The notes below the pieces were generated by a model that was given only the letters and a program-made list of their open reading frames with translations, ran no database searches and was not told where the DNA came from. This document shows, one piece after another, positions 644-12,905 of a stretch of 16,367 nt of DNA. The position numbers and the translations under genes are program-made. Source of the DNA: an uncultured Polymorphobacter sp. (GTDB taxonomy: Bacteria > Pseudomonadota > Alphaproteobacteria > Sphingomonadales > Sphingomonadaceae); contig CALDHQ010000032.1 in the NCBI GenBank assembly GCA_937894055.1, positions 1-16,367 of the forward strand, written 5' to 3'. Positions within the stretch are counted from its first letter, which is position 1. Every line of letters begins with the position of its first letter.

Positions 644-924
644 CTGCTCGACCTGAAGGCGCGTCTGGACTCGACCGACAAGGTGACGCAAGTCGTCGAA
701 GCGCTGCACCAGACCAACGAGGTCTTGGATGATGCCGTGTGGGTCGAAGCCAACGAGCTGACCGGCCACACCACCAGCGTGCGCACCGGCCTGCCCGAGC
801 CCACCTGGCGCAAGCTGTACGGCGGCGTGCAGCCCAGCAAGACCACCAGCGTGAAGGTCCGCGAGGGCCTGGGCATGCTGGAGAACTACGCCGAGATCGA
901 CAAGTCGCTGGCCGACCTGCAGGG
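644..924 (+). pseudogene. Phage major capsid protein, N-terminal fragment
   Basis: About 93 residues match the N-terminal region of a tailed-phage major capsid family (the type seen in podoviruses). Seen: LLDLKARLDSTDKVTQVVEA, LHQTNEVLDDAVWVEAN, TGHTTSVRTGLPEPTWRKL, GGVQPSKTTSVKV and LGMLENYAEIDKSLADL. In the family, the QTNEILDD, RTGLP..W..L, PSK and G.LE.YSEVD elements occur in this order and spacing. The match ends at LADL, about base 920, where the full capsid would continue for 200 or more residues. The next residues belong to a flavin monooxygenase. No portal, scaffold or tail gene is nearby, so this is an isolated piece and not a prophage. Confidence 0.7.
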
Positions 925-1888
925 CATCAACGGCGAAATCGCGCTCAAGGTCGTGCGCCGGACCAAGGACAGCATCATCGTCCGCGGCGCCAAGATCCTC
1001 GCCACGCTCGGGCCGTTCGCCGACGAGCTGTTCGTCTATCCGGGGCAGCCGCAACCGCCGGGCTCCGACCCCGCCGCGCTGCTGTCCTTCTCGATCCCGA
1101 TGGGGTCGAAGGGCCTACACACTTTGTGCCGCGACCATTACGGGGTCGGGTCGAGCGTCGGTGACCGGCCGTTCAGCAGCCGCTTCGACGAGCAGGACGC
1201 CTTCATGATTTTCGACGATGTCGAGATCCCCAATGAGCGCGTGTTCATCGACGGCGATGGCGACGTCTACAACGGGCTGATGCAGCATGGCTGGGCCGCC
1301 AATATCATGCAGCAAACCTCGATCCGTGCGGCGGTGAAGCTCGAGTTCGCTTACGAACTCTGCACGCGGATGGCGCAGGCGACCAATTCGGACAAGCGCC
1401 CCGAAACCGCCGCGATGCTGGGCGAACTGTGGAGCTACGCCTGCCTGACGCGCTCGGCCATCCATGCCGCCGAGGCCGGTGCGCGCGATTGGGGCAACGG
1501 CGCCTTCTTCCCCGACGACCGCCCGTTCCGCGCGGTCCGCGCCAACATGCCGGGCTGGATGGTGCGCGCCAACGAGATCATCAAGACGATCGGCTCGCAC
1601 AATCTGCTGGCGACGCCGTCGCTCGAACTGCTCGACAATCCCGAAATCGGCCCGTTGATCGAGGCCTACATGCCGGGTGCCAACGGCATGAGCGCCCGCG
1701 AACGCGCCAAGCTGTTCCGCACCGCCTGGGACTTTGCGGGATCGGCGCTGGGCAGCCGCGCGGAGCTGTACGAACGCTTCTATCTGGCGAGCGCGCCGCG
1801 CAATTATGCGCTCGACCATATGTTCGCGCAAATGGAACGGCCGTGGGCGCAGTTCCCCGAAATGCTGGCGGAAGTCGGCGTGAAATAG
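925..1888 (+). CDS. HpaB-type flavin-dependent aromatic monooxygenase, 5'-truncated (C-terminal ~320 aa)
   Basis: This is the oxygenase component of a two-component flavin monooxygenase, the 4-hydroxyphenylacetate 3-hydroxylase (HpaB) family, which uses FADH2 from a separate reductase to hydroxylate phenols. Seen: ALKVVRRTKDSIIVRGAKI, ATLGPFADELFVYPG, FSIPMGSKGLHTLCRD, PFSSRFDEQDAFMIFDDVEI and ERVFIDGD, then the long helical C-terminal domain ending at GVK. Family members run about 480 to 520 residues, and here roughly the first 200 are replaced by unrelated pieces. The open frame extends back to base 272, but those residues are not HpaB, so the true start is lost. No HpaC-type reductase lies in the window. 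It converges on the TetR gene at 1937 across a hairpin. HpaB itself and related phenol, pyrrole-carboxylate or chlorophenol hydroxylases cannot be told apart from this part alone. Confidence 0.82.
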
Positions 1889-1936: not shown

Positions 1937-2590
1937 CTATGCCAGCCCCGACAGCGCCAGCGCCAGATGCTGGCGCAGCCGGTCGAGCGCCTGTGTGCTG
2001 CTCTTGCGGCCGCTGAGCCACTCGAGCAGGATCATGTAATACGCCGAAAAGAAGCCCTCCGCGACCAGACGCGCATCGAAATCCGTCCTGAGGCGACCCG
2101 AGTCCATCGCCGATACCAGAATTGCCGACAGGCCGGTGTACACCACGTCCATCAGTACGGAGATTTCACCCGAATGGTCGTCGCGCACCGGAAACATGAT
2201 TTCGCGCAACAGGATCTTGGCGAGCTCGCGGTCGCGCTCGTGATAGCCCAGCATCGCCGTGAATACGTGCATCAGCTGTTCCAGCAGCCCATCCTGCGAC
2301 CGCAGGCTGGCAAAGGCGGCTTGCGCCTGCTCGATCATCTCGTCGCGAAAGACCATGACCAGCAGGTCTTCCTTCGACCTTGCATACAGGAATAGCGTGC
2401 CAGTGCCGATATCGGCATCGGCTGCAATTTCAAGCGTGGTGGTGTTCTCGAAGCCCTTCTCCGCAAACAGCCGGCGCGCGGCGTTGACAATGCGGGCACG
2501 CTTTTCCTGCTTGTTGCGCTCGCGGCGGCCAACGGGCGGCAGCCGTTCCGGTTTGCTATCCGTTTCCTGGCTTTGCGATGGGCGCGCCAT
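1937..2590 (-). CDS. TetR/AcrR-family transcriptional regulator (paralogue 1)
   Basis: A 217-residue one-component repressor of the TetR family. The N-terminal DNA-binding domain is clear: RARIVNAARRLFAEKGF (residues ~31-47), then the helix-turn-helix TTTLEIAADADIGTGTLFLY (~50-69) and RSKEDLL. The C-terminal ligand and dimer domain (~85-217) is mostly helical. The first ~28 residues are a polar tail typical of variable TetR N-termini. The protein resembles the other TetR in the window (6638-7279) in both halves, including RRE.NK..KRARI and YHERD, so the two are likely paralogues. It lies downstream of the minus-strand catabolic operon but has its own 122-base upstream gap with a promoter-like TTGACA. 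It probably senses an aromatic substrate or CoA-ester intermediate. The ligand is unknown. Confidence 0.9.
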   Translation of the reverse strand: MARPSQSQETDSKPERLPPVGRRERNKQEKRARIVNAARRLFAEKGFENTTTLEIAADADIGTGTLFLYARSKEDLLVMVFRDEMIEQAQAAFASLRSQDGLLEQLMHVFTAMLGYHERDRELAKILLREIMFPVRDDHSGEISVLMDVVYTGLSAILVSAMDSGRLRTDFDARLVAEGFFSAYYMILLEWLSGRKSSTQALDRLRQHLALALSGLA

Positions 2591-2712: not shown

Positions 2713-3960
2713 TCAGCGCGGGTTAAGGCTGGCCCTCGCATTCAGGATCGCCGGGTCGAATCCGGCGGTGGCCTTGTAGCCGGCGGCGATTTCGGCGCGT
2801 TCGGCCATCGGCAGCGCTGTCGCGAGCTCGCCGCCGGGCGTGTGCAGCCGTTCGGCGGCGAGATCGAGAACGCGGTCGGGGCCTTGCGCGCGGTTCATCA
2901 GCACGATGCGTGCCGTCGCTTCGCGGCGGTCGCCTTCGTAGCGCGCCAGCGCATCCTCGACCGTCGCGCAGGTGGCGAGGTGGAGGGCCATGACTCGCGC
3001 ATCGATGACGCCCTGCGTCGCGCCGTTCGAGCCGATCGGGTACATCGGGTGCGCAGCGTCGCCCATCAGCGTCACGCGGCCGAACGTCCAGCGCGGCAGC
3101 GGATCGCGGTCGACCATCGGAAATTCATAGATCGGCCCCGATGCCGCGACGATGGCGGGCACGTCGATACCCGGCCAGCGCCAGCCGGCGAACGGCGGCA
3201 GGAAGTCGGCGCGGTCGCCCGGCCGGTTCCAGTCGCGTGGCGGCGGCGCGCCATCGGCATCGCGCTTGAGGTCGCAAATCCAGTTGAGCCGGCCTTTACC
3301 GATGGGATAGGCGACGAACTTCTGCGCCGACCAGCCGGCCCAGATCATCGCCTTGCCGCCGAGCGGTGCGATGACGGGCGAGGTTGAACGCCACAGCGTA
3401 ATGCCGTTCCAGCGCGGCGCGCCTTCGTCGGGGTAATAGTGGCGCCGCACCGCCGAATGGATGCCGTCGGCGCCGATCAGCAGGTCGGCTTCGACGCTGG
3501 TGACGGTGCCGTCGCGGCGGTCGGCGAAGCGCATCTGCACGCGGCCTTCGTCGCGTTCGATGGCGACGAGTTCCTGGCCCAGCCGCACGGCATCGCTGCC
3601 CAGCCGCTCGCGCACCTTGGCGAGCAGGAACATCTGCAATTCGCCGCGGTGGATGGCGATTTGCGGCCAGTGATAGCCCGCTGCCAGCCCGCGCGGTTCG
3701 TGCCACACCGGCTGGCCGTCGGCGGTCAGGTAATGAAGGTCGGTGATCGCGACGCCGATGCCCAGCAGTTCATCGAGCAGCCCGAGTTCGGCGAGTTCGC
3801 GCACCGCATGCGGCAGCAGGTTGATGCCGACGCCGAGCGGCGCGGGCTGCGCCACCGCCTCGTACACCGTCGGCCGGAAGCCCGCGGCGTGCAGGCTGAG
3901 CGCCGCGGTCAGCCCGACGATTCCGGCGCCAACGATGGCGATATCGAGGTCACGATCCAT
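2713..3960 (-). CDS. FAD-dependent aromatic monooxygenase (class A, PhzS-like)
   Basis: A 415-residue single-component flavoprotein monooxygenase that should hydroxylate an aromatic ring using NAD(P)H and O2. Seen: the Rossmann GAGIVG (residues 11-16), the DG motif in GADGIHSAVRRH (~163-174) and the FAD-ribityl GD motif in MGDAAHPMYPIGSNGATQG (~299-317). Length and the MYP.GSNGA.Q motif fit the PhzS/3-hydroxybenzoate-hydroxylase side of pfam01494. It is the last gene of the minus-strand operon: its ATG begins one base after the DUF3237 stop, so the two are probably translationally coupled. The operon context suggests it prepares a substrate for ring cleavage or acts on a side intermediate. 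The substrate cannot be read from sequence, and a decarboxylating hydroxylase is equally possible. Confidence 0.87.
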   Translation of the reverse strand: MDRDLDIAIVGAGIVGLTAALSLHAAGFRPTVYEAVAQPAPLGVGINLLPHAVRELAELGLLDELLGIGVAITDLHYLTADGQPVWHEPRGLAAGYHWPQIAIHRGELQMFLLAKVRERLGSDAVRLGQELVAIERDEGRVQMRFADRRDGTVTSVEADLLIGADGIHSAVRRHYYPDEGAPRWNGITLWRSTSPVIAPLGGKAMIWAGWSAQKFVAYPIGKGRLNWICDLKRDADGAPPPRDWNRPGDRADFLPPFAGWRWPGIDVPAIVAASGPIYEFPMVDRDPLPRWTFGRVTLMGDAAHPMYPIGSNGATQGVIDARVMALHLATCATVEDALARYEGDRREATARIVLMNRAQGPDRVLDLAAERLHTPGGELATALPMAERAEIAAGYKATAGFDPAILNARASLNPR

Positions 3961-3961
3961 G

Positions 3962-4420
3962 TCAGGCGATCCTGAAAATATCGAGGTGGACGCGGTCGGC
4001 GCGGCGTTCGCCGGTCGTCACCGCGAGCAGGCGGTTGAGATAGGCCAGGTCGGGCGTGGCGGTGCGAAAGCGCATCGCGGTGCGGAAGTAATAGTCGGCC
4101 ACGTCAACCGCTTCGCCGCGCGCCAGCCGTGCCAGCACATCGGGCGGCCCGGCGCGCAACCCGCGCGAATCGACCTCGACATGGCGGCCACCGAGGTCGA
4201 GGACGTAACGCGCGTTGATTTCGAGGCTGCCGTCGGGCGCGATGTCCTGCCAGTCGGCACCGCCGGGCAGCACGACCCCGTCATGGTCGCCCCGCACGCT
4301 GCCGCCGAGGATGGGGATGTAGCGGCGCTGCGTGCCGTGTAGGCTGCCGGCATCGACGGGTGCACCGACCGCCAGCTCGAACTGCAGCATCGGCGTGCCG
4401 GTCAGCGCCACCCCCGTCAT
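3962..4420 (-). CDS. DUF3237 family protein
   Basis: A 152-residue protein of the DUF3237 (UPF0311) family, small beta-barrel-like proteins of unproven function often found in aromatic or acyl-CoA catabolic clusters. Seen: LQFELAVGAPVDAG near the start, the central RRYIPILGGSVRGD and GGADWQDIAPDGSLEINARY, then YYFRTAMRF with a C-terminal RLLAVTTGER. These are the family's usual landmarks (L..G....G..R...PI.GG...G and G.ADW), and the length is typical. There is no signal peptide or membrane segment, so it is likely cytoplasmic. Its start overlaps the stop of the thioesterase by ATGA (4417-4420), and it ends one base before the monooxygenase gene. It could bind or isomerise a pathway intermediate, but nothing in the sequence shows which. 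Confidence 0.85.
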   Translation of the reverse strand: MTGVALTGTPMLQFELAVGAPVDAGSLHGTQRRYIPILGGSVRGDHDGVVLPGGADWQDIAPDGSLEINARYVLDLGGRHVEVDSRGLRAGPPDVLARLARGEAVDVADYYFRTAMRFRTATPDLAYLNRLLAVTTGERRADRVHLDIFRIA

Positions 4421-4860
4421 GCGCGCGCCACCGGAATGACCGCGATGGTCAGCCGCGACAGGCAGACCAGCCGACCCTCGTCATCGGTAATGCGGATGCT
4501 CCAGATCTGCGTCGTGCGGCCGAGCGCGTCGGCGGTGGCGGTCGCGTGAACATGGCCCGATTTGACCGGGCGGACGTGGTTGGCGTTGATCTCCAGCCCG
4601 ACGCCGATGTGCGTTGCCGGGTCGAGCGTCAGGTTCGCCGCCAGCGAGCCGACGGTCTCGGCGAGCGCCACCGACGCGCCGCCGTGCAGGCGCCGGTGCG
4701 GCTGCACGGTGCGGTCATCGACGGGCATACGGGCGCGGACGAAATCATCGCCGACCTCGGTAATTTCGATGCCGAGATGCGCCGCCAGCGAGTTGGCCTC
4801 GCCCGCCGTCAGCGCTGCGGGGTCGAGGTTGTCACGCGTCCAGATACGCTTGCCCGCCAT
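4417..4860 (-). CDS. Hotdog-fold (PaaI/EntH-like) acyl-CoA thioesterase
   Basis: A 147-residue single-domain hotdog thioesterase, expected to hydrolyse an aryl- or acyl-CoA thioester. The key segment is RLHGGASVALAETVGSLAAN (residues ~57-76), with the HGG turn and the likely catalytic Glu68 placed as in the EntH/YdiI branch. GVGLEINANHVRPVKSGHV (~86-104) is the conserved second strand pair. I chose the ATG at 4858-4860 (MAGKRIWTRD) because the open frame upstream is a shadow of the hydratase gene. It follows that gene after a single base and overlaps the next gene by ATGA. A thioesterase in a ring-cleavage operon implies either a CoA-ester intermediate or relief of trapped CoA, as for PaaI in phenylacetate catabolism. 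Confidence 0.88.
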   Translation of the reverse strand: MAGKRIWTRDNLDPAALTAGEANSLAAHLGIEITEVGDDFVRARMPVDDRTVQPHRRLHGGASVALAETVGSLAANLTLDPATHIGVGLEINANHVRPVKSGHVHATATADALGRTTQIWSIRITDDEGRLVCLSRLTIAVIPVARA

Positions 4861-4861
4861 C

Positions 4862-5668
4862 CTAAACGAACCGCAGCCCGATGCCGCCGAGCGCGCCATA
4901 GTCGGCATGGAACACGTCGCTGGCGTTGGCGAACACCGGCCGCGTGAACGACCCGCACAGCAGGATGTCGCCGGGGTTGAGGCTGATATCGAACGGCGCC
5001 AGCTTGTTGGCGAGCCAGGCGATGCCGGTGGCGGGGTGGTTGAGCACGCCCGCCGCCAGCCCGGTCTCCTCGATGACGCCGTTGCGGTAGAGCATGGCGC
5101 CGACCCAGCGCAGGTCGACCGCATCGGGCTTGACCGGACGGCCGCCGAGCACGACGCCGCCGCACGCAGCATTATCCGAAATCGTGTCGAGCGCCTTCAT
5201 CGGCTTGCCGGTCTTGGGGTCGACCGGATCGACGCGCAGGTCGATGATTTCGAGCGCCGGGGTGACATAATCGGTCGCCGCGAGCACGTCGAACAACGTC
5301 ACCCCCGGCCCCTTGAGCGGCCGCGCCAGCATGAACGCCAGCTCGACTTCGATCAGCGGCTTGATGAACCGCGCGACGGGCACATCCGAGCTTTCGGCGT
5401 ACAGCATGTCGTCGAGCAGGCTGCCGTAATCGGGCTCGTCGATCGACGAATTGGCCTGCATGGCGCGCGACGTCAGCCCGATCTTGTAGCCGATGGTGCG
5501 CCGGCCTTCGCTGCGCTTGATGTCGAGCCACGCGGTCTGGATGGCATAGCCGTCGGCCATCGTCATGCCGGGAAAGCGCGGCGCGATCTGCGGAATGCGG
5601 ACCTTGCTGCGTTCGGCTTCGTGGAGGTCGCGCGCCAGCGTCGCGATGTCTTGCGGGGAAATGGTCAT
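4862..5668 (-). CDS. hpaH: HpaH-type 2-oxohept-4-ene-1,7-dioate hydratase
   Basis: A 268-residue hydratase of the FAH-like HpaH/MhpD/DmpE family, adding water to a 2-hydroxydienoate/2-oxoenoate to give the 4-hydroxy-2-oxo acid for aldol cleavage. It follows HpaH of the homoprotocatechuate pathway closely: [20 protein letters not shown] (62-81), [13 protein letters not shown] (106-118), [13 protein letters not shown] (131-143), [18 protein letters not shown] and [20 protein letters not shown]. The metal-binding Glu107, Glu109 and Glu140 and Lys62 are present. Length equals the E. coli enzyme. The ATG at 5666-5668 overlaps the aldolase stop (ATGA), and the longer open frame upstream is shadow. 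Hydration then aldol cleavage by the adjacent gene is the classical order. The substrate could be the 7-carbon diacid or a substituted analogue. Confidence 0.92.
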
Positions 5669-6447
5669 GACTGTCCTTTCGCGGCACCGAGCAATGTGCG
5701 CGCCTGTTGCACCAAGCCGCGCCCGGCCATGATGAAGTTGAAATCGCCGACCAGCGTGATGAAGCGGAAGCCGAGCTCCGCCATGCGCGCCGCGAATGCC
5801 GGGCTGGCGGTGTGGATGCCCGCGGTCAGGCCGTTCGCCGCGCACGCCGCGACAATCGCGCGATAAGCGTCGAGCATGTGCGGTTCGTCCTTGTCGAAGC
5901 CCTGCGTGCCACCGAGCGCCAGCGACAGGTCGGACGGCCCGACATAGAGCCCGTCAAGCCCCGGCGTCGCGGCGATCGCCGCGAGATTGTCGAGCGCGTC
6001 GCGGGTTTCGATCATCGCGAACTTGAGCAGCTGCGCTTCGGCGACCATGCCGTAGTCGAACCCGGCATAGATCATCGCGCGCGTCGCCCCCGAACTGCGG
6101 ATGCCGTTGGGCGGATAGCGGCACGCCGCGACAAAGCGCGCGGCATCGTCGGCGGTGTTGACCAGCGGGCAGATGACCCCCATCGCACCGGCGTCGAGCG
6201 CCTGGCCGACCAGCGTTGCATCATTGGCGGCGAGTCGCACCAGCGGCGTCAGCGGTGTCGTAGAAATCGCCTGCAGCATCGCCAGCATGTCGGGATAGCC
6301 GATCATGCCGTGCTGCATATCGATGGTGAGCGAATCCCAGCCGAGCGAGGCCATGACCTCGGCGAGAAAGCCGCCGGGAATCACCGACCAGCCGTTGAGC
6401 ACGGTCTGCCCACGCGCCAGTTGTTCCCTGACCTGGATTGCCTTCAT
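5665..6447 (-). CDS. hpaI: HpaI-type 4-hydroxy-2-oxo-acid (class II) aldolase
   Basis: A ~260-residue HpcH/HpaI-family aldolase, metal-dependent, cleaving 4-hydroxy-2-oxoheptanedioate or a relative to pyruvate and an aldehyde (succinate semialdehyde in the known pathway). Catalytic elements, numbered from my start: His46 in DMQHG, Arg71 in PLVRL, metal ligands Glu147 in MIETRDALDN and Asp173 in VGPSDLS. ACRYPPNGIRSSG is also family-typical. Two in-frame ATGs exist, at 6451-6453 and 6445-6447. I prefer the second because the GGGGAG Shine-Dalgarno abuts the first but sits 6 bases before the second. It is the first gene of the minus-strand operon, opposite the second TetR gene. A close alternative is 2-dehydro-3-deoxyglucarate aldolase, but the neighbouring hydratase argues for aromatic catabolism. 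Confidence 0.9.
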   Translation of the reverse strand: MKAIQVREQLARGQTVLNGWSVIPGGFLAEVMASLGWDSLTIDMQHGMIGYPDMLAMLQAISTTPLTPLVRLAANDATLVGQALDAGAMGVICPLVNTADDAARFVAACRYPPNGIRSSGATRAMIYAGFDYGMVAEAQLLKFAMIETRDALDNLAAIAATPGLDGLYVGPSDLSLALGGTQGFDKDEPHMLDAYRAIVAACAANGLTAGIHTASPAFAARMAELGFRFITLVGDFNFIMAGRGLVQQARTLLGAAKGQS

Positions 6448-6460
6448 GCGCATCTCCCCG

Positions 6461-6476
6461 TTTGAGCCTGGTCATT
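6461..6476. promoter_or_regulatory. Degenerate copy of the TetR-type operator beside the aldolase start
   Basis: TTTGAGCCTGGTCATT matches the perfect palindrome at 6552-6567 in 11 of 16 positions and keeps TGAGC on one side and TCATT on the other. It sits just ahead of the ribosome binding site of the minus-strand operon, where repressor binding could block transcription. The match is by eye and could be chance. Confidence 0.35.
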
Positions 6477-6551
6477 TTTTGTCCATTGGCCCGGCGTCGT
6501 CTTGCCTGAGGAGGAGATGGCACAATTCGCCGGACGGCTTCAAGCGAAAAT

Positions 6552-6567
6552 AATGAGCTTACTCATT
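6552..6567. promoter_or_regulatory. Perfect palindromic operator between divergent catabolic operons
   Basis: AATGAGCTTACTCATT has 6-base arms (AATGAG/CTCATT) around a 4-base CTTA spacer, in an AT-rich patch unlike the flanking GC-rich DNA. It lies in the 184-190 base gap between the aldolase and TetR starts and ends 6 bases before a -35-like TTGACT reading toward the TetR gene. Size, symmetry and position fit a TetR dimer site. The likely binder is the adjacent TetR (6638), possibly also its paralogue at 1937. Binding is inferred, not shown. Confidence 0.65.
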
Positions 6568-6573
6568 TTTCTA

Positions 6574-6601
6574 TTGACTCCGGTGACGCCTGGGTTAGCT
6601 T
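6574..6601 (+). promoter_or_regulatory. Candidate promoter of the plus-strand TetR-dioxygenase operon
   Basis: TTGACT (6574-6579), a 16-base spacer and TAGCTT (6596-6601) make a plausible sigma-70-like promoter 36 bases ahead of the GTG start. The -35 box follows the palindrome directly, so a bound repressor would occlude polymerase. The -10 box is weak. Confidence 0.4.
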
Positions 6602-6637
6602 TGGGCACAGAAAACAACGAACAGGGGAGGTCGGCCG

Positions 6638-7279
6638 GTGGCCGTCGCAGCGCTCAGCCGCAGAGAGCAGAACAAGCACGACAAGCGTGCGCGGATTACC
6701 GCGGCGGCGCGTGCGCTGTTCGCGCACAAGGGCTTTGCCGCGACCACCACGCAGGAAATCGCCGATGCCGCCGGCGTCGCGGCGGGCACGATCTTCACCT
6801 ATGCGCGGACCAAGGACGACCTGCTGATTCTGGTGTTCCACGACGAGATGCTCGACGTGGTCGAACGCGCCCGCACACGCGCCTTGCAGCAGCCGCGGCT
6901 GCGCGATCAGGCGATCGCCTTCTTCAACGAAATTGCCGATTATCACGAACGCGACCTGCCACTCGCACGCGCGCTGATGCGGCAGTTGAGCTATGTCGAA
7001 AGCACTGACCAGCGCGCCCTGGTGTCGCAACTGATGCGGCGGCTGACGGGCCATCTGGCGAAGCTCATCGATGCAGCGAAAGCCACCGGCGAAGTGGCTG
7101 CCAGCCGCCCGCTGACGGTGGCAGCGCGCACGCTGTTCGCGGTGTATTTCCTGCACCTCAACGGCCTCCTCAACGGCTACCTCGACCGCGCGCAGTTCGA
7201 ACGCGCGCTGACCGCGGATTTCACGCTGGTGCTCGCGGGGTTGGCGCCAGCGCGCGCTGCCAGATCAACAATCCGATAA
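6638..7279 (+). CDS. TetR/AcrR-family transcriptional regulator (paralogue 2)
   Basis: A 213-residue TetR-family regulator. The DNA-binding domain is KRARITAAARALFAHKGF (~16-33), the helix-turn-helix TTTQEIADAAGVAAGTIFTY (~36-55) and RTKDDLL. The rest is a helical ligand and dimer domain ending in Ala/Arg-rich residues. It starts with GTG (6638-6640), supported by a strong AGGGGAGG Shine-Dalgarno 7 bases upstream. No better-placed ATG exists. It leads the plus-strand operon, 19 bases ahead of the extradiol dioxygenase, and faces a divergent operon across a perfect palindrome, the usual arrangement for an autoregulated local repressor controlling both directions. It resembles the TetR at 1937-2590 through most of its length. 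The inducer is unknown but probably a substrate or ring-cleavage intermediate. Confidence 0.92.
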   Translation: MAVAALSRREQNKHDKRARITAAARALFAHKGFAATTTQEIADAAGVAAGTIFTYARTKDDLLILVFHDEMLDVVERARTRALQQPRLRDQAIAFFNEIADYHERDLPLARALMRQLSYVESTDQRALVSQLMRRLTGHLAKLIDAAKATGEVAASRPLTVAARTLFAVYFLHLNGLLNGYLDRAQFERALTADFTLVLAGLAPARAARSTIR

Positions 7280-7298
7280 CCACCTGGGGAGGTGTCAA

Positions 7299-8177
7299 AT
7301 GAGCGGCGTGACGGAATTGGGCTATGTGCGCCTCGGGGTCTCCGACCTCGCCAAGTGGCGCGATTTTGCCGGACGGCTGGTCGGGCTCGAGGTCGGCGCC
7401 GACTCGACCGACGATGTCGTCTATCTGCGTGCCGATGCGTGGCACCACCGGCTGATCCTCGAACGCGATGCCGGCGATGATATCCTCGCCGCCGGCCTGC
7501 GCGTCGCCGGACCCGGCGAGTTCCGCGCGCTGCAGGAAACGCTGCGCGCCGCGGGCGTTGCGTTCGATGTCGCCGACGCCGCAACTGCCGGCAAGCGCTG
7601 CGTGCTGGAGATGCTGTCGCTCACCGATCCGGCCGGCAATCCGCTCGAAATCTTCCACGGCCCGCGCGTCGATACGCACCGGCCGTTCCATCCCGGCCGC
7701 GGCATGTTCGGAAAGTTCGTCACCGGCAACGGCGGCCTCGGCCACATGATGCTGCGCGCCGGCGATCTCGGCGAAATGCACGCCTTTTACACGTTGCTCG
7801 GGATGCGCGGCAGCATCGAATACAAGGTGCCGGTGACGCCCGAATTCACCGTCGAAATCCTGTTCATGCACTGCAACCAGCGCGACCACACCTTCGCGTT
7901 CGGCTTGCCGTCGGAGCGCCGCGTCAACCACCTCATGTTCGAAGTCAGCGACCTCGATGACGTTTTCCTGGCCTATAATCTGGTGCGCGAGGCCGGCTAC
8001 GAGATCGCCATCCTGCCCGGCAAGCACGCCAACGACCAGATGTTCTCGTTCTACTGCATCTCGCCGTCGGGGTTTCAGGTCGAAATCGGCTGGGGCGGCC
8101 GTCCCGCCAGCCACCAGTCCGAATATTATGTCGGCGATACCTATGGCCATGAATTCACCGCCGGGAGGCCCGCATGA
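7299..8177 (+). CDS. Type I (VOC-fold, BphC-like) extradiol ring-cleavage dioxygenase
   Basis: A 292-residue two-domain VOC protein of the BphC/HsaC type, which opens catechols next to the diol using Fe(II) and O2. The C-terminal domain keeps the full active site: metal ligands His149 (GGLGHMMLR), His211 (RRVNHLMFEV) and Glu262 (GFQVEIGW), plus second-shell His197 (NQRDHTFAFG), His243 (LPGKHANDQ) and Tyr252 (FSFYCISPSG). Their spacing equals that of H146/H210/E260 and H195/H241/Y250 in biphenyl-dioxygenase BphC. A GGGGAGG Shine-Dalgarno precedes the ATG. It overlaps the aldehyde dehydrogenase gene by ATGA. The context suggests an aldehyde ring-fission product, because a dehydrogenase and no C-C hydrolase accompanies it. 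The E. coli Hpa pathway uses an unrelated type II enzyme (HpaD). The substrate is not determinable here. Confidence 0.92.
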   Translation: MSGVTELGYVRLGVSDLAKWRDFAGRLVGLEVGADSTDDVVYLRADAWHHRLILERDAGDDILAAGLRVAGPGEFRALQETLRAAGVAFDVADAATAGKRCVLEMLSLTDPAGNPLEIFHGPRVDTHRPFHPGRGMFGKFVTGNGGLGHMMLRAGDLGEMHAFYTLLGMRGSIEYKVPVTPEFTVEILFMHCNQRDHTFAFGLPSERRVNHLMFEVSDLDDVFLAYNLVREAGYEIAILPGKHANDQMFSFYCISPSGFQVEIGWGGRPASHQSEYYVGDTYGHEFTAGRPA

Positions 8178-9649
8178 GCACCGCCACCAAGCTGCCGCCA
8201 CAGGCGCATTTCATCAACGGCAAGTTCACTCCCGCTGCGTCGGGCGCGACGTTCGACGCGGTCAATCCGTACACCGAAACCGTGACCACGCAGGTCGCGC
8301 GCGGTGACGCTGCCGATGTCGCCAACGCCGTCGCGGCCGCCAAGGCAGCGTTCGACGATGGCGCCTGGTCGCGTGCGCCGGCGTCGTTCCGCCGCAAGGT
8401 GCTGTTCAAGGCTGCCGACCTTATCGAGGCACGCTCGGACGAAATCATCCGGCTGCAGACGCTCGAAATGGGCGGCCCCGTCGGCCCGGCGCACCCCGGC
8501 CCGCACCCGATCATGTCGCGTTCGGCATGGAACATGCGCTTCTTTGCCGAGGAGCAGGAACAGGCCGGCGACCATGCCTTCAACCGCGATGACAGCCTGC
8601 TGACCTACACGATGAGCGATGCCGCCGGGGTGTTCGGGCTGATCACGCCGTGGAACGCGCCGATCATGCTGTCGACGTGGAAGATGGCGCCGTGCCTTGC
8701 CTACGGCAATTCGGCGGTGCACAAGCCGTCCGAACTGTCGCCGCTGTCGATCAAGATCCTCTGCGAAATCTTCGCCGAAGCCGGCATGCCCGACGGCGTC
8801 TACAATGTCGTCCACGGCCTCGGCAAAGAAGCCGGCGTCGCGCTGGTCGAGCACAAGGATGTCATCGGCGTGTCGTTCACCGGCTCGCCCGGTACGGCGC
8901 GCGACATTGCCGCGCGCGCGGCACCGCAGCTCAAGCGCACCTCGTTCGAACTCGGCGGCAAGTCGGCGAACATCATCTTCGCCGATGCCGATCTGGCAAA
9001 GGCGATTCCCGGCGCCGCGATGGGCATCTTCATGAACAGCGGCCAGGCCTGCGTCGCCGGCTCGCGCATCCTCGTCCAGCGCTCGATTTACGACGCCTTC
9101 CTCGAAGGCTTCGCCAAGGCGGCATCGATGTGGAAGGCCGGCGACCCGTCCGACCATGGCACCCGTCTCGGGCCGCTGGTGTCGAAGGGCCAGTATGACC
9201 GCGTCACCGGCTATCTCGATCTGGCGCGGCAGGAAGGCCGCATCCTGTTCGGCGGCGGCCGTCCGGCGGGGCTCGACACCGGCTATTTCGTCGAACCCAC
9301 TGCCATCGTCGATGTCAGCCCCGACGCGCGCGTCTGCCAGGAGGAGATCTTCGGCCCCGTCGCCACCATCCTGCCGTTCGACGATGCCGATGACGCGCTG
9401 GCCATCGCCAACAACTCGGACTTCGGGCTGGCGGGCTATGTCTGGACGCGCTCGCAGGACACCGCGCACTATATGAGCCACCGCATGCAGACCGGCATGA
9501 TCTGGATAAACTCGGGCTTCGACCGCGACCTGCGCCAGCCGTTCGGCGGCATGAAGAACAGCGGCGTCGGCCGCGAAGGCGGCAACCTCAGCCGCGAATT
9601 CTTCACGACGACGCGCTTCGCCTCGTTCCCGCTGACACCGCGCAAGTAA
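8174..9649 (+). CDS. hpaE: HpaE-like semialdehyde dehydrogenase (aldehyde dehydrogenase superfamily)
   Basis: A 491-residue NAD(P)-dependent aldehyde dehydrogenase of full family length. Seen: VFGLITPWNAPIM (coenzyme domain, ~156-168), VSFTGSPGTARDIA, the general-base Glu259 in SFELGGKSANII, the nucleophile Cys293 in NSGQACVAGSR, EEIFGPVATILPF and FGGMKNSGVGREGG near the end. Overall it best fits 5-carboxymethyl-2-hydroxymuconate semialdehyde dehydrogenase (HpaE) or 2-hydroxymuconic semialdehyde dehydrogenase, which oxidise the aldehyde made by extradiol cleavage. Translation is coupled to the dioxygenase by ATGA (8174-8177), matching that order of reactions. A broad-specificity aldehyde dehydrogenase is the alternative. 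The symbol is assigned by similarity and context. Confidence 0.85.
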   Translation: MSTATKLPPQAHFINGKFTPAASGATFDAVNPYTETVTTQVARGDAADVANAVAAAKAAFDDGAWSRAPASFRRKVLFKAADLIEARSDEIIRLQTLEMGGPVGPAHPGPHPIMSRSAWNMRFFAEEQEQAGDHAFNRDDSLLTYTMSDAAGVFGLITPWNAPIMLSTWKMAPCLAYGNSAVHKPSELSPLSIKILCEIFAEAGMPDGVYNVVHGLGKEAGVALVEHKDVIGVSFTGSPGTARDIAARAAPQLKRTSFELGGKSANIIFADADLAKAIPGAAMGIFMNSGQACVAGSRILVQRSIYDAFLEGFAKAASMWKAGDPSDHGTRLGPLVSKGQYDRVTGYLDLARQEGRILFGGGRPAGLDTGYFVEPTAIVDVSPDARVCQEEIFGPVATILPFDDADDALAIANNSDFGLAGYVWTRSQDTAHYMSHRMQTGMIWINSGFDRDLRQPFGGMKNSGVGREGGNLSREFFTTTRFASFPLTPRK

Positions 9650-9660
9650 GGAAAACGACC

Positions 9661-10524
9661 ATGCATGTTTTGGAAGGTGAACGCTTCGAACAGCGCCGCA
9701 TCCAGTTCGAAGGCCGCCCCGAATGGGTGAAGGTCGAAGGTGACGAACTGCGGCTGATGGACGGGCGGCGCGTCGCCGAGGCGGCGGCGGTCTATCTGCC
9801 GCCGTGCGACCCGGGCAAGATCATCTGCATCCACCTCAACTACGATTCGCGACGCGTCGAATTCCGCGCGCCCGATCTGGTGACGCCGACCTATTTCCAG
9901 AAGCCGACGACGGCGCTCAACGCGCATCGCGGCATGCTCAACCGGCCGGCGAACACGCAGTATCTCAACTATGAAGGCGAAATCGCCGCGATCATTGGCC
10001 GGCCGATGAAGAACGTCGCACCCGAAGACACCTGGCACTATATCGCCGGCTTCGCGCCCGCCAATGACGTCGGCAGCCAGGACTTCCGCGATACCGACGC
10101 CGGCGGCATGCTGCGCGTCAAGGGCATGGACGGCTTCTGCCCCGTCGGCCCCGGCATCGTTCGCGGCGTCGATGTCCGCAAGTCGACGCTGCGCACCATC
10201 CTCAATGGCAAGGTCGTACAGGAAGACGAAGTCGCCAACATGACCTTCGGCATCGACTATCAGCTCGCCGACCTGTGCCGCCACATCACGCTGCTGCCCG
10301 GCGATATCGTGCTCACCGGCACGCCCGCCAACTCGCGGCCGATGCAGCCCGGCGATGTCGTCGAAGTCGAAGTCACCGGTCTCGGCCGGCTTACCAACCG
10401 CGTCGCCGACATTCCGGCGCCCGCGCACGATGTCGGCCACCAGCCGACCGACACCGATGCCGTGCGCCGCGTCGCATTGGGCGGCGAGTGGTGGAAAGAA
10501 CAGGATGCACTGAAGCGTCCGTAA
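9661..10524 (+). CDS. HpaG-like fumarylacetoacetate-hydrolase-family isomerase/decarboxylase (single domain)
   Basis: A 287-residue FAH-family protein. Metal-binding Glu105 and Glu107 lie in NYEGEIAAIIGR and Asp136 in PANDVGSQDFR. Other landmarks are MDGFCPVGPGIV and HITLLPGDIVLTGTPAN, close to the HpaG/HpcE type that decarboxylates and isomerises the oxidised ring-fission product to 2-oxohept-ene-dioate. E. coli HpaG is a 429-residue tandem of two FAH domains. This protein has one domain plus an ~85-residue N-terminal extension, so it may perform only one of the two steps. The ATG is preceded by AAGGAA and lies 11 bases after the dehydrogenase stop. Its product would feed HpaH and HpaI of the divergent operon. 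Acylpyruvase activity is a possible alternative. Confidence 0.86.
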   Translation: MHVLEGERFEQRRIQFEGRPEWVKVEGDELRLMDGRRVAEAAAVYLPPCDPGKIICIHLNYDSRRVEFRAPDLVTPTYFQKPTTALNAHRGMLNRPANTQYLNYEGEIAAIIGRPMKNVAPEDTWHYIAGFAPANDVGSQDFRDTDAGGMLRVKGMDGFCPVGPGIVRGVDVRKSTLRTILNGKVVQEDEVANMTFGIDYQLADLCRHITLLPGDIVLTGTPANSRPMQPGDVVEVEVTGLGRLTNRVADIPAPAHDVGHQPTDTDAVRRVALGGEWWKEQDALKRP

Positions 10525-10542
10525 TCTGGGGAGTCCAACGCC

Positions 10543-11778
10543 ATGACCGCCTATGCCATCGAAACCAACCTGCTCGACCCGGACATCTTTCCGCAAGCCA
10601 AGGGCCCGCCGCACAGCCTGTTCGCGCAGTGGCGCGACAAGGACCCGGTGCACTGGAACCCGGTCAACCCGAACTATGCCGCCGACGTGCCGTTCGCCAG
10701 CATCCGCAAGGGCTTCTGGGTGCTGACGCGCTACGCCGACGTGTCCGAAGTGTCGCGCGACCAGAAGCGTTTCAGTTCATATGACGAAGGCTTCGTCATC
10801 TGGGACATGGATGACGAGGAACTGGTGCGCCAGCGCGCCAACTTCATGGGCATGCAGCCCGAAGCGCATATGGCGGTACGCCGGGTGCTCAACGGGCCGT
10901 TCGCGCCCAACGCCATGCGCGCGCTGACCCCGAAGATCGACGGCCTCGCCGCCGAAATCATCGATTCGGTCGCCGCCAAGGGCAAGTGCGAGTTCGTCTT
11001 CGACGTCGCCAGCAAGCTGCCGGTCTATACCTTCTGCGAACTGATGGGCATTCCCGAAAGCTACCGCGACGCCGTCGTCGAATATGGCAATGCGCTGGCC
11101 GACGTCGAAACCCGCACCGCGCGCACCGTCGATCCGATCGTGCCGCTGTTCGCGATCTGCGAGGAAATCTGCGCGCAGAAGCGCGCGAACCCCGACGATT
11201 CGCTGATCAGCACGCTGGTGCATGACACGACGCTCGGGCTCGAACAGCTCCACATCAACATGTTCTTCATGGTGTTCGCGATCGCCGGCCACGAAACCAC
11301 GCGCAGCACAGCGGCGCACTTCATCTATCTGATGAACCAGTTTCCCGACCAGTTTGCGCTGCTGCGCAGCGACGTCGACAAGCACCTCGACAACGCCATC
11401 GAGGAAGTGCTGCGCTACACCTCGACCACCACCAACTTCCGCCGTACCGCGACCTGCGACACCGAAATCGGCGGCTTCAAGGTCAAGAAGGGCGACAAGA
11501 TCTATCTGTCCTACGCCGCCGCCAACCGCGACCCGGCGGTGTTCGAAAACCCCGATGCGTTCGACATCACCCGCGCCAATGCCAACCGTCATCTGTCATT
11601 CGGCGTCGGCCCGCACCTGTGCCTCGGCGCCCGCCTCGCGCGGCTCGAACTCCACGCGCTGCTCCGGCAGATCGTCACGCGGATCCCCGACATCCACCTT
11701 GCCGGTGAACCCGAATGGCTGCGCTCGATCTGGTTCAACGCCATCGTCCGCATGCCGGTGGTGTTCACGCCTGAATAG
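10543..11778 (+). CDS. Cytochrome P450 monooxygenase (bacterial class I type)
   Basis: A 411-residue soluble P450. The I-helix oxygen-activation motif is AGHETTR (~248-254), the K-helix ExxR is Glu288-Val-Leu-Arg291, and the heme loop FGVGPHLCLG places the heme-ligating Cys at 360. Length and absence of a membrane anchor fit bacterial three-component P450s, which need a ferredoxin and reductase. Neither is in the window. It follows the FAH-family gene after 18 bases with GGGGAG upstream, so it belongs to the plus-strand operon. Likely roles are hydroxylation or O-demethylation of the compound that becomes the catechol, or oxidation of an alkyl side chain. I cannot name the CYP family. Confidence 0.92.
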   Translation: MTAYAIETNLLDPDIFPQAKGPPHSLFAQWRDKDPVHWNPVNPNYAADVPFASIRKGFWVLTRYADVSEVSRDQKRFSSYDEGFVIWDMDDEELVRQRANFMGMQPEAHMAVRRVLNGPFAPNAMRALTPKIDGLAAEIIDSVAAKGKCEFVFDVASKLPVYTFCELMGIPESYRDAVVEYGNALADVETRTARTVDPIVPLFAICEEICAQKRANPDDSLISTLVHDTTLGLEQLHINMFFMVFAIAGHETTRSTAAHFIYLMNQFPDQFALLRSDVDKHLDNAIEEVLRYTSTTTNFRRTATCDTEIGGFKVKKGDKIYLSYAAANRDPAVFENPDAFDITRANANRHLSFGVGPHLCLGARLARLELHALLRQIVTRIPDIHLAGEPEWLRSIWFNAIVRMPVVFTPE

Positions 11779-11820
11779 CGGCAAGATGTCCGCATCGACC
11801 AACCGTGCATGGGGATCATC

Positions 11821-12609
11821 ATGGATACGACCAGCCTGTTTCGCCTCGACGGCCGCGTTGCGCTGGTCACCGGCGGCAGCCGCGGCATCGGCAAGATGAT
11901 CGCCGAGGGCTTCATCGCGCAGGGGGCGAAGGTCTATATCTCGTCGCGCAAGCCGGCGGCGTGCGAAGCGACCGCCGCCGAGCTTGGCCCGAACTGCTTT
12001 GCGTTGCCGCAGGATGTGTCGACGGTGGCGGGCTGCCGGGCTCTCGCGGCGCAGTTCGCCGAACACGAACCCAGGCTCGACATTCTGGTCAATAACGCCG
12101 GCGCGGCCTGGGGCGCGCCGTTCGAGGATTTCCCCGAAAGCGGTTGGGACAAGGTCATGGACCTCAACGTCAAGTCGCCGTTCTTCCTGATGCAGGCGCT
12201 GCACGGCGCGTTGAAGGCGTCGGGCACGCGCGCGCAGCCGGCGAAGATCATCAACATCACCTCGATCGACGGCCAGCGCCTCAATCCGGGCGAAACCTAC
12301 AGCTATCACGCGTCGAAATCGGCGCTGATCTATCTGACCAAGCGCATGGCCGCGCGGCTAGTGCGCGATTGCATCAACGTCACCTCGATCGCGCCCGGCG
12401 CGTTCGCCAGCGAAATGAACCGTGCGGCGCGCGATCACGGCGAGACAATCGCCAAGGGCATCCCGGCCCGGCGCATCGGCGTCGACGAGGACATGGCCGG
12501 CGCCGCGATCTACCTCGCCAGCCGCGCCGGCGACTATGTCATCGGCGAGACGATCACCGTCGATGGCGGCTTGGTCAACGCCAGCCTAGGCGCAAGTTTC
12601 GAGACCTGA
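11821..12609 (+). CDS. Short-chain dehydrogenase/reductase (classical SDR)
   Basis: A 262-residue NAD(P)-dependent oxidoreductase of the classical SDR family. Seen: the coenzyme motif TGGSRGIG (~17-24), NNAG (~91-94), catalytic Ser148 in INITSIDG, the Tyr162-x-x-x-Lys166 pair in YHASK, and the C-terminal TVDGG. I prefer the ATG at 11821 (MDTTSLFRLDG) over the in-frame ATG at 11809, because GGGGA lies about 6 bases before the former and the extra residues MGII are atypical. It is the last gene of the plus-strand operon, 42 bases after the P450. It could oxidise the alcohol the P450 forms or reduce a ketone intermediate. The substrate is open, and similarity to RhlG/FabG-like reductases does not imply lipid synthesis here. 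Confidence 0.9.
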   Translation: MDTTSLFRLDGRVALVTGGSRGIGKMIAEGFIAQGAKVYISSRKPAACEATAAELGPNCFALPQDVSTVAGCRALAAQFAEHEPRLDILVNNAGAAWGAPFEDFPESGWDKVMDLNVKSPFFLMQALHGALKASGTRAQPAKIINITSIDGQRLNPGETYSYHASKSALIYLTKRMAARLVRDCINVTSIAPGAFASEMNRAARDHGETIAKGIPARRIGVDEDMAGAAIYLASRAGDYVIGETITVDGGLVNASLGASFET

Positions 12610-12905
12610 CTGTCCGCCGTTGTGCCAATCGGCATTTCCGACCCAGCTCGACGCTTGAACGGCTGCTCATGATTTAATGTCCGGTTTCGAGCGACGACCA
12701 ACGTCCTACGAATGACGCAAATGGAGCGCGTTGCTGACATTTGACTAATCGTCCGCAATGGGGTCGTTAGCCGACAGGCAGCTAAAGCTCACCCCCGACC
12801 CCTCCCTTGCAGGGAGGGGAGCAGCCAGTATGCGGCGCCAAACAACCGGGTGCAGGGGTCACCCCTGCCCGCCGGAGGCCCTTCGCGGCCCCCCCTGCCC
12901 GTCCC
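12610..12905. repeat. Intergenic C-rich repeat block between convergent SDR and LysR genes
   Basis: The first ~170 bases show no gene. The last ~120 bases (12790-12905) are C-rich with two hairpins. One, at 12799-12819, has 9-base perfect arms CCCCTCCCT/AGGGAGGGG and a 3-base loop. The other, at 12852-12868, is GCAGGGGT-C-ACCCCTGC with 8-base arms. Such C-tract intergenic repeats are, from general knowledge, common between genes in sphingomonad genomes. Position between two convergent stops suggests transcription termination in both directions. No open frame here looks real. Confidence 0.6.

Follow-up and report, generated by a model that had tools for sequence, protein, structure and literature searches.

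The homoprotocatechuate (hpa/hpc) pathway shares its logic and the families of its aldehyde dehydrogenase (ALDH), HpaG, HpaH and HpaI with a gene island that we analysed in a 16,367-nucleotide (nt) stretch from an uncultured Polymorphobacter sp. (GenBank assembly GCA_937894055.1, contig CALDHQ010000032.1; the whole stretch is called the window). Two described pathways resemble the island as well. The Aph pathway of Rhodococcus combines a phenol hydroxylase, extradiol cleavage of 4-alkylcatechols, a semialdehyde dehydrogenase, a decarboxylase, a hydratase and an aldolase that yields pyruvate (PMC6710988), and the lower ibuprofen (ipf) pathway of the sphingomonad Rhizorhabdus wittichii MPO218, from ipfL onward, uses a type I extradiol dioxygenase (EDO) on 4-isobutylcatechol and a dehydrogenative, oxalocrotonate-like branch (PMC9195938). 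On sequence comparison, we judge the island to be a conserved aromatic pathway module, a variant of dehydrogenative meta-cleavage. We consider it about an even chance that it is dedicated to para-substituted phenols, degraded via a 4-substituted catechol to pyruvate and an aldehyde, with a cytochrome P450 at the entry step and a TetR-family regulator (TetR2) repressing both operons.

The island consists of two operons that diverge from a 184-nt region (6454–6637), and every gene that a first-pass annotation had named in it is present:

2713–3960, minus strand: FAD-dependent monooxygenase (FMO), PRK07538 subfamily, PhzS-like (NF005720, 534 bits; cut-off 400)
3962–4420, minus strand: DUF3237 protein (PF11578, 117.3 bits; cut-off 24)
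4417–4860, minus strand: hotdog thioesterase of the EntH/MenI/PaaI type, start ATG at 4860 (TIGR00369, 126.9 bits; cut-off 36.6)
4862–5668, minus strand: HpaH, 2-oxo-alkenoate hydratase (TIGR02312, 407 bits; cut-off 351.5)
5665–6453, minus strand: HpaI/HpcH-type pyruvate aldolase (PF03328, 105.8 bits; TIGR02311, 154 bits, below the cut-off of 368.8)
6549–6570, no strand: operator-like palindrome AATAATGAG-CTTA-CTCATTTTT between the divergent operons, kept in loci L030 and L031
6638–7279, plus strand: TetR2, of the TetR family, a candidate controller of both operons (PF00440, 57 bits)
7299–8177, plus strand: type I (VOC) EDO, nearest solved structure 2wl3 (TIGR03213, 310 bits, below the cut-off of 366)
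8174–9649, plus strand: HpaE-like ALDH of the hydroxymuconic semialdehyde type (TIGR02299, 533 bits, below the cut-off of 638)
9661–10524, plus strand: single-domain FAH protein resembling the C-terminal part of HpaG (decarboxylase/isomerase), nearest solved structure 1gtt, HpaG (PF01557, 180.7 bits)
10543–11778, plus strand: cytochrome P450 (PF00067), CYP125-like as judged by the solved structures closest to it
11809–12609, plus strand: SDR dehydrogenase, accessory (PF13561, 165 bits)

The junctions of the minus-strand genes, from HpaI through HpaH, thioesterase and DUF3237 to FMO, measure −4, +1, −4 and +1 nt, which bears out the coupling that the first-pass annotation had seen at each of them; those of the plus-strand genes, from TetR2 through EDO, ALDH, FAH and P450 to SDR, measure 19, −4, 11, 18 and 30 nt. 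With junctions of −4 to 30 nt, both strands look like operons. The motifs that we take to mark these enzymes are intact in the P450 (AGHETT and FGVGPHLCLG), the ALDH (ELGGK and GQAC) and the FMO (GAGIVG, GADG and GDAAH).

From these genes we infer a route in which the P450, or HpaB in sister clusters, would add a hydroxyl group beside the phenol hydroxyl to give a 4-substituted catechol, and the EDO would cleave the ring next to the diol, yielding a 5-substituted 2-hydroxymuconate-6-semialdehyde. The HpaE-like ALDH would then oxidise the aldehyde, the FAH protein would isomerise and decarboxylate the product, HpaH would hydrate it, and the HpaI-type aldolase would split it into pyruvate and an aldehyde that keeps the former substituent of the ring (R becoming R-CH2-CHO). 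Because this aldehyde retains R, substrates differing in R could share the route. Upstream, the DUF3237 protein, thioesterase and FMO may together trim the side chain, and TetR2 may repress both divergent operons through the palindrome. Like the first-pass annotation, we found no C–C (alpha/beta) hydrolase among the window frames scanned with Pfam, which were 18 of the 75 listed, each of at least 90 amino acids (the remaining frames mostly overlap cluster genes); what was proposed there, a dedicated pathway for an aromatic compound whose ring-fission product is an aldehyde, is supported, as far as genes can indicate reactions.

The grouping is more than a chance one, for other genera have the same ten genes (TetR, EDO, ALDH, FAH, P450, HpaI, HpaH, thioesterase, DUF3237 and FMO), again arranged in two divergent operons. 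Below, loci carry L and genomes G labels, G000 being the window's own genome, and neighbouring genes lacking a hidden Markov model search were named by eye. The nearest EDOs belong to an uncultured Polymorphobacter (L030, 98% identity) and to P. arshaanensis DJ1R-1 (L031, 94%), and the gene occurs in all three Polymorphobacter genomes compared, the window's included. In P. arshaanensis all ten genes stand in the order of the window and are 93–99% identical to their counterparts there, apart from the P450 (67%). A sphingomonad (L071, in G319) and Sandarakinorhabdus sp. AAP62 (L075, in G245) share the order ALDH-EDO-FAH-P450 // TetR-HpaI-HpaH-hotdog-DUF3237-FMO, which differs from that of the window in that TetR is the first gene of the HpaI operon and ALDH stands before EDO; the gene-order search in sphingomonads that had been suggested as a check thus returned nearly the same order in L031, L071 and L075. 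Pyruvatibacter sp. HU-CL02332 (L081, in G618) has a seven-gene core in the L071/L075 arrangement, minus thioesterase, DUF3237 and FMO, and in L034, L035, L083, L082 and L033 the P450 is replaced by HpaB. On the contig of L030 we found about 149 of 262 HpaI residues, in two overlapping pieces (4648–5057), and none of the genes from HpaH to FMO. L082 and L083 are two HpaB-version copies in one genome, G715, with EDOs 95% identical; by eye, ketosteroid-dehydrogenase-like, Baeyer–Villiger-type and P450/ferredoxin genes lie beside L082.

Matches to the module's proteins are infrequent in the genomes sampled. At E ≤ 1e-90 the FAH protein was matched in 15 of 396 genomes of the order, with at least 74% identity only in G000, G245 and G319, and in 17 of 385 genomes of the class sample; at E ≤ 1e-40 the EDO was matched in 23 of the 396 order genomes, with G000, G245 and G319 as the cluster members. 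A scan of named genome contigs returned nine loci, L030–L038, of which L030–L035 are of this kind and L036–L038 are not. The EDO and FAH matched 208 and 1067 plasmid records, respectively, all EDO matches being below 60% identity, and an EDO-ALDH-FAH set was found in none of the seven plasmid records examined, which were drawn from the matches listed (20 of the 208 and 20 of the 1067); members of 50–60% identity may stand among the others. The combination that the first-pass annotation had put forward as a candidate for an undescribed system is not unique to the window but forms a conserved module, known in two versions that differ in the hydroxylase, and no characterised cluster of matching make-up was found in the literature searched.

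Across the clusters the FAH proteins are 61–96% identical, and the EDO and, where they occupy their slots, the P450 and FMO also stay related. ALDH, HpaH and HpaI, judged by their sequences, are non-orthologous types in the same slots. The HpaI of the window, L031 and L034 is 38–43% identical to that of L035, L071, L075 and L081–L083; HpaH splits in the same way (41–45%), with a third type in L032 (44–54%), and the ALDH of the window and L031–L033 is 41–46% identical to the rest. These types are mixed, L034 combining HpaI and HpaH of the window type with the other ALDH type, and in L075, the sole member of the second set tested, HpaE and HpaI are again the best NCBIfam matches, below cut-off. 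This exchange of types within constant slots is the strongest evidence that the genes truly serve the dehydrogenase–decarboxylase–hydratase–aldolase route.

The divergent promoter is a further shared element. We scanned 13 loci (221,688 bases) for the pattern TGA[C/G]-N4-[paired]TCA with A/T-rich flanks, which had been set from the window (first), L031, L034, L071 and L075. Nine strong ATGAGnnnnCTCAT-like sites were found in eight of the 13 loci, namely those five, with two sites in L075, and L030, L082 and L089, which emerged from the scan; the L030 site was also in an alignment, and the window, L030 and L031 are near kin. Twenty first-order Markov simulated sets gave no site. Each palindrome lies in or at the edge of a TetR-linked divergent promoter, in loci of both hydroxylase versions, so that it is likely to be a shared operator. 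This prediction is consistent with TetR2 as the candidate controller of both operons, and the module is probably jointly regulated; the first-pass annotation had made its proposal hinge on co-regulation, for which the predicted operator between the operons is the sequence-side support. Scans for sigma-70 promoters and terminators gave no excess over shuffled sequence.

At the entry step, the P450 was matched at E ≤ 1e-130 in 3 of 386 order genomes, in all three inside this cluster. In 11 chosen genomes, some of them incomplete, the HpaB domain PF03241 was absent from all five P450-version genomes (G776, G777, G245, G319 and G618) and from G781, which holds L032, and was present in G715 (two), G778, G779, G780 (two) and G000. 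The closest P450s in the HpaB-version genomes G715, G778 and G779 are only 34–37% identical. As far as these domain searches go, P450 and HpaB alternate, G000 and G780 excepted, and they do so next to closely related EDOs, those of L035 (HpaB) and L081 (P450) being 82% identical. The P450 of P. arshaanensis (L031, 13246–14475), set among neighbours so close to those of the window, shares 85% identity with the L075 enzyme and is hence nearer to it than to the window's, suggesting that the P450 has been exchanged even inside the genus. In L032, the last 63 residues of HpaB (9806–9994) stand directly upstream of the EDO and a P450 (51%, incomplete at the contig end) downstream. This remnant looks like a trace of replacement; it could also be an assembly or amplification chimera, and the isolate name AG-908-B16 suggests a single-cell genome. 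Taken together, we infer that the P450 substitutes for HpaB as a phenol ortho-hydroxylase, keeping side-chain oxidation as the alternative. A wider scenario is conceivable, although we would sooner bet against it: the P450 displaced HpaB as entry enzyme while the TetR operator, EDO clade and slots stayed, and sphingomonads gained the DUF3237, FMO and thioesterase front end, suited to side chains of the phenylpropanoid or lignan kind, making up an undescribed aromatic pathway.

The three genes of that front end look like an accessory side-chain module. The nearest solved structures of the FMO, 3c96 and 2rgj, are ones we take to be PhzS, and PhzS is a decarboxylating hydroxylase; orthologs 80% identical occupy the same slot in L071 and L075. 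The DUF3237 protein contains the domain (PF11578) of the PinX/PhcF/PhcG family, and its predicted model (pLDDT 90.7) aligns with RPA1785 (3c5o) at a TM-score of about 0.9 and with PhnH (6jjs) at 0.65–0.76. PinX and its relatives PhcF and PhcG, 38% and 42% identical to it, are decarboxylases in the lignin-dimer catabolism of sphingomonads, and a quinone methide is described as likely to form in the PhcF and PhcG reactions (PMC12607616, PMC12997858); PhnH adds a phenol across an alkene (PMC8704240). Since all four act on phenolic compounds, they fit a substituted phenol here, and by analogy the DUF3237 protein may be a side-chain decarboxylase. A likeness to pyocyanin demethylase was discarded, its match (E 0.15) not being significant and a fold search returning the protein's own family. 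Beyond the window, 186 class genomes yielded 15 places with FMO relatives of about 50% identity. Of the seven places examined, L148 has a DUF3237 gene about 3 kb away and L152 lies beside a TetR gene. In another sphingomonad (L103, 9302–13257), an FMO (49%) adjoins a DUF3237 gene (34%), with a P450 (29%) near and no EDO match in the stretch.

Several observations weigh against the reading of the island as a phenol pathway with P450 entry. The palindrome is missing in five of the 13 loci scanned (L032, L033, L035, L081 and L083), even though the DNA-binding regions of ten TetRs, compared by eye, appear similar and those of L035, L081 and L083 are among the ten. In G000 and G780 a P450 of this group coexists with HpaB, so that the alternation is not strict, and related P450s stand outside such clusters in G776 (54%, E 1.4e-149) and, on another contig, in G780 (59%, E 9.2e-165). 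The island showed no ferredoxin, reductase or tautomerase gene, and none of the seven FMO places examined has an EDO beside it; FMO relatives gave no lead to the substrate. L085 holds an EDO outside the clade described below and, within the same 10.8 kb, an FAH of 72% identity, with no ALDH found, and the nearest solved relatives of the window's EDO include 1,2-dihydroxynaphthalene and 2,3-dihydroxybiphenyl enzymes. Finally, the nearest solved P450s are CYP125-like, some titled steroid C26-monooxygenase, which suits attack on a side chain better than on a ring.

The last point belongs to the strongest rival, in which the P450 oxidises an alkyl or terpenoid-like side chain, the catechol comes from the PhzS-like FMO by decarboxylative hydroxylation or from an outside enzyme, and the lower pathway is the same. 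Database names of some P450 relatives (cholest-4-en-3-one 26-monooxygenase) point the same way, as do the settings of the 54% and 59% P450s (L130, 9029–10279, and L129, 5585–6832), which by eye recur among genes of CoA-ester metabolism: a CoA-transferase, two MaoC-like genes and a lyase. DUF3237 and thioesterase would suggest side-chain acids, and the decarboxylating hydroxylation of PhzS also counts for this rival. Against it, clusters whose EDOs are close kin carry P450 and HpaB in alternation, and Pyruvatibacter has the P450 without FMO, DUF3237 or thioesterase in the stretch examined. We regard this rival as possible, if somewhat improbable.

A 4-hydroxyphenylacetate/homoprotocatechuate pathway whose usual dioxygenase has been swapped for a BphC-type enzyme is considerably less probable. 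HpaH passes its curated NCBIfam cut-off, as do, among the cluster genes and in the matches listed, only FMO and thioesterase; the HpaH of L075, at 243.6 bits, falls below the same cut-off. HpaH is not diagnostic, because the Rhodococcus DK17 bphC cluster also holds a gene annotated hpaH. FAH relatives provide further support: those of 64–65% identity lie near a LigB-type gene in L087 (TIGR02298 as best match, 168.8 bits, below 316), one of 53% lies near LigB by eye in L107, and one of 54.8% stands beside hpaE, hpcG and hpcH in Sphingobium TomTYG64. Against this pathway, TIGR02299 (HpaE) is the best match of the ALDH yet stays below its cut-off, as do the HpaI model for the aldolase, the HpaG model for the FAH protein (TIGR02303, 175.6 versus 276.4 bits) and the HpaD model for the EDO (TIGR02295, 65.8 versus 321.4 bits). 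Neither a LigB-type protein nor, in the cluster, an HpaF, tautomerase or CHMI-family protein was found among the 18 scanned frames, and no gap inside the operons exceeds 30 nt. To our knowledge, a P450 entry step is no part of the homoprotocatechuate pathway. Because the HpaE, HpaI, HpaG C-terminal and BphC models stay below cut-off, the hpa names are family resemblances: of the labels given in the first-pass annotation, HpaH stands in full and HpaE, HpaI and the HpaG-like protein stand as resemblances, and close kinship with the homoprotocatechuate pathway, to which it had likened the cluster, is not borne out. Dmp-type lower enzymes are not indicated either (TIGR03218 for DmpH, 189 versus 350.6 bits; TIGR03220 for DmpE, 199 versus 408.8 bits; no tautomerase); the cluster does have the type I EDO together with a semialdehyde dehydrogenase that is a feature of Dmp/Aph-type alkylcatechol meta-cleavage.

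The EDO is best described as BphC type, although it stays below the BphC equivalog cut-off. H149, H211 and E262, which we take to be its 2-His-1-Glu ligands, and H197, H243 and Y252, presumably second-sphere residues, are invariant in all 11 aligned sequences. In a tree of 37 hand-picked rows, the EDOs of the 11 rows labelled as clusters, a label given where FAH and ALDH stand beside the EDO, form one clade with support of 98/95, and its neighbours include rows such as S. yanoikuyae bphC, DK17 bphC and JS3066 nahC; the tree omits the order matches L019, L020 and L025–L029, the near-copy L030 and all but five plasmid records, carries a long-branch warning for rows outside the clade, and through the US6-1 plasmid row (L110) leaves the sister group of the clade unresolved. 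This kinship, the 2wl3 likeness and the PhzS-like FMO would suit an EDO acting on a 3-substituted or fused-ring catechol of the biphenyl, naphthalene or phenazine type, with the Hpa-like genes serving something else. Such catechols give ketones on ring fission, which are handled by C–C hydrolases or aldolases; in the window the EDO does not reach the BphC equivalog cut-off and no C–C hydrolase was found among the scanned frames, and every one of the 11 rows in the clade has ALDH and FAH with its EDO, which makes this alternative very unlikely. An estrogen pathway of the edc/oec type, with P450 4-hydroxylation of estrone followed by 4,5-cleavage, can practically be dismissed: the edc cluster of Novosphingobium tardaugens is alike in its P450, glyoxalase-like EDO, divergent operons and TetR, but the available part of its description gives lower genes for an indolepyruvate ferredoxin oxidoreductase (IOR), MaoC, thiolases and acyl-CoA dehydrogenase and names no HpaG, HpaH or HpaI (PMC7793797), and with only the first two enzyme types in common and no IOR-type edcC or CoA-dependent lower genes among the scanned window frames, we rejected the identity on gene content.

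The flanks of the island add two features at the left end of the window:

923–1888, plus strand: 3′ portion of a gene for an HpaB-type flavin monooxygenase, cut short where an assembly chimera is suspected (PF03241, 137.5 bits; PF11794, 111 bits)
1937–2590, minus strand: second TetR-family regulator, TetR1 (PF00440), 43–52% identical to the TetRs of L035, L071, L075, L081 and L083

Positions 1–372 hold an SdhA fragment, and the single open frame 272–1888 fuses a short piece of FAD-oxidoreductase, a capsid piece of the GP7 type (about 602–922) and the C-terminal two thirds of HpaB, so that 1–1888 looks like an assembly chimera; the rest of the genome has only a weak HpaB_N match (C393, 26.9 bits, below cut-off). 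At the other end, the SDR gene has no match beside the P. arshaanensis cluster and a partial counterpart (72%) in G777 (L115). A GC-rich palindrome (12799–12819) between the convergent SDR and LysR genes is possibly a terminator and is absent from the sites of the terminator scan.

If the phenol reading is correct, the EDO clade, near biphenyl enzymes and named after them, would belong to a dehydrogenative phenol pathway, the module would offer a natural case of a P450/flavin hydroxylase swap within one pathway and a testable operator for finding further members, and DUF3237 proteins would have a new setting. Compared with hpa/hpc, the island has a BphC-type EDO for HpaD and a P450 for HpaBC. 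PinX (for which this is stated), PhcF and PhcG, of sphingomonad pinoresinol and phenylcoumaran catabolism, share the DUF3237 family with the island and are likened to it by family (PMC12607616, PMC12997858), and no lignostilbene dioxygenase was seen in the window; the Ipp pathway differs as well (PMC12442392). Aph is unlike the island in its two-component flavin hydroxylase AphAB at entry, its Dmp-like lower enzymes with a tautomerase and its acyl-CoA end product, and DUF3237 is not mentioned in the part of the source available (PMC6710988). The ipf pathway is unlike it in its tautomerase, acylating ALDH, XylR/DmpR-type regulator and upper pathway of CoA ligase and dioxygenase (PMC9195938). 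By analogy, Aph and ipf nevertheless work in the same way as the proposed route of the island, with other enzymes.

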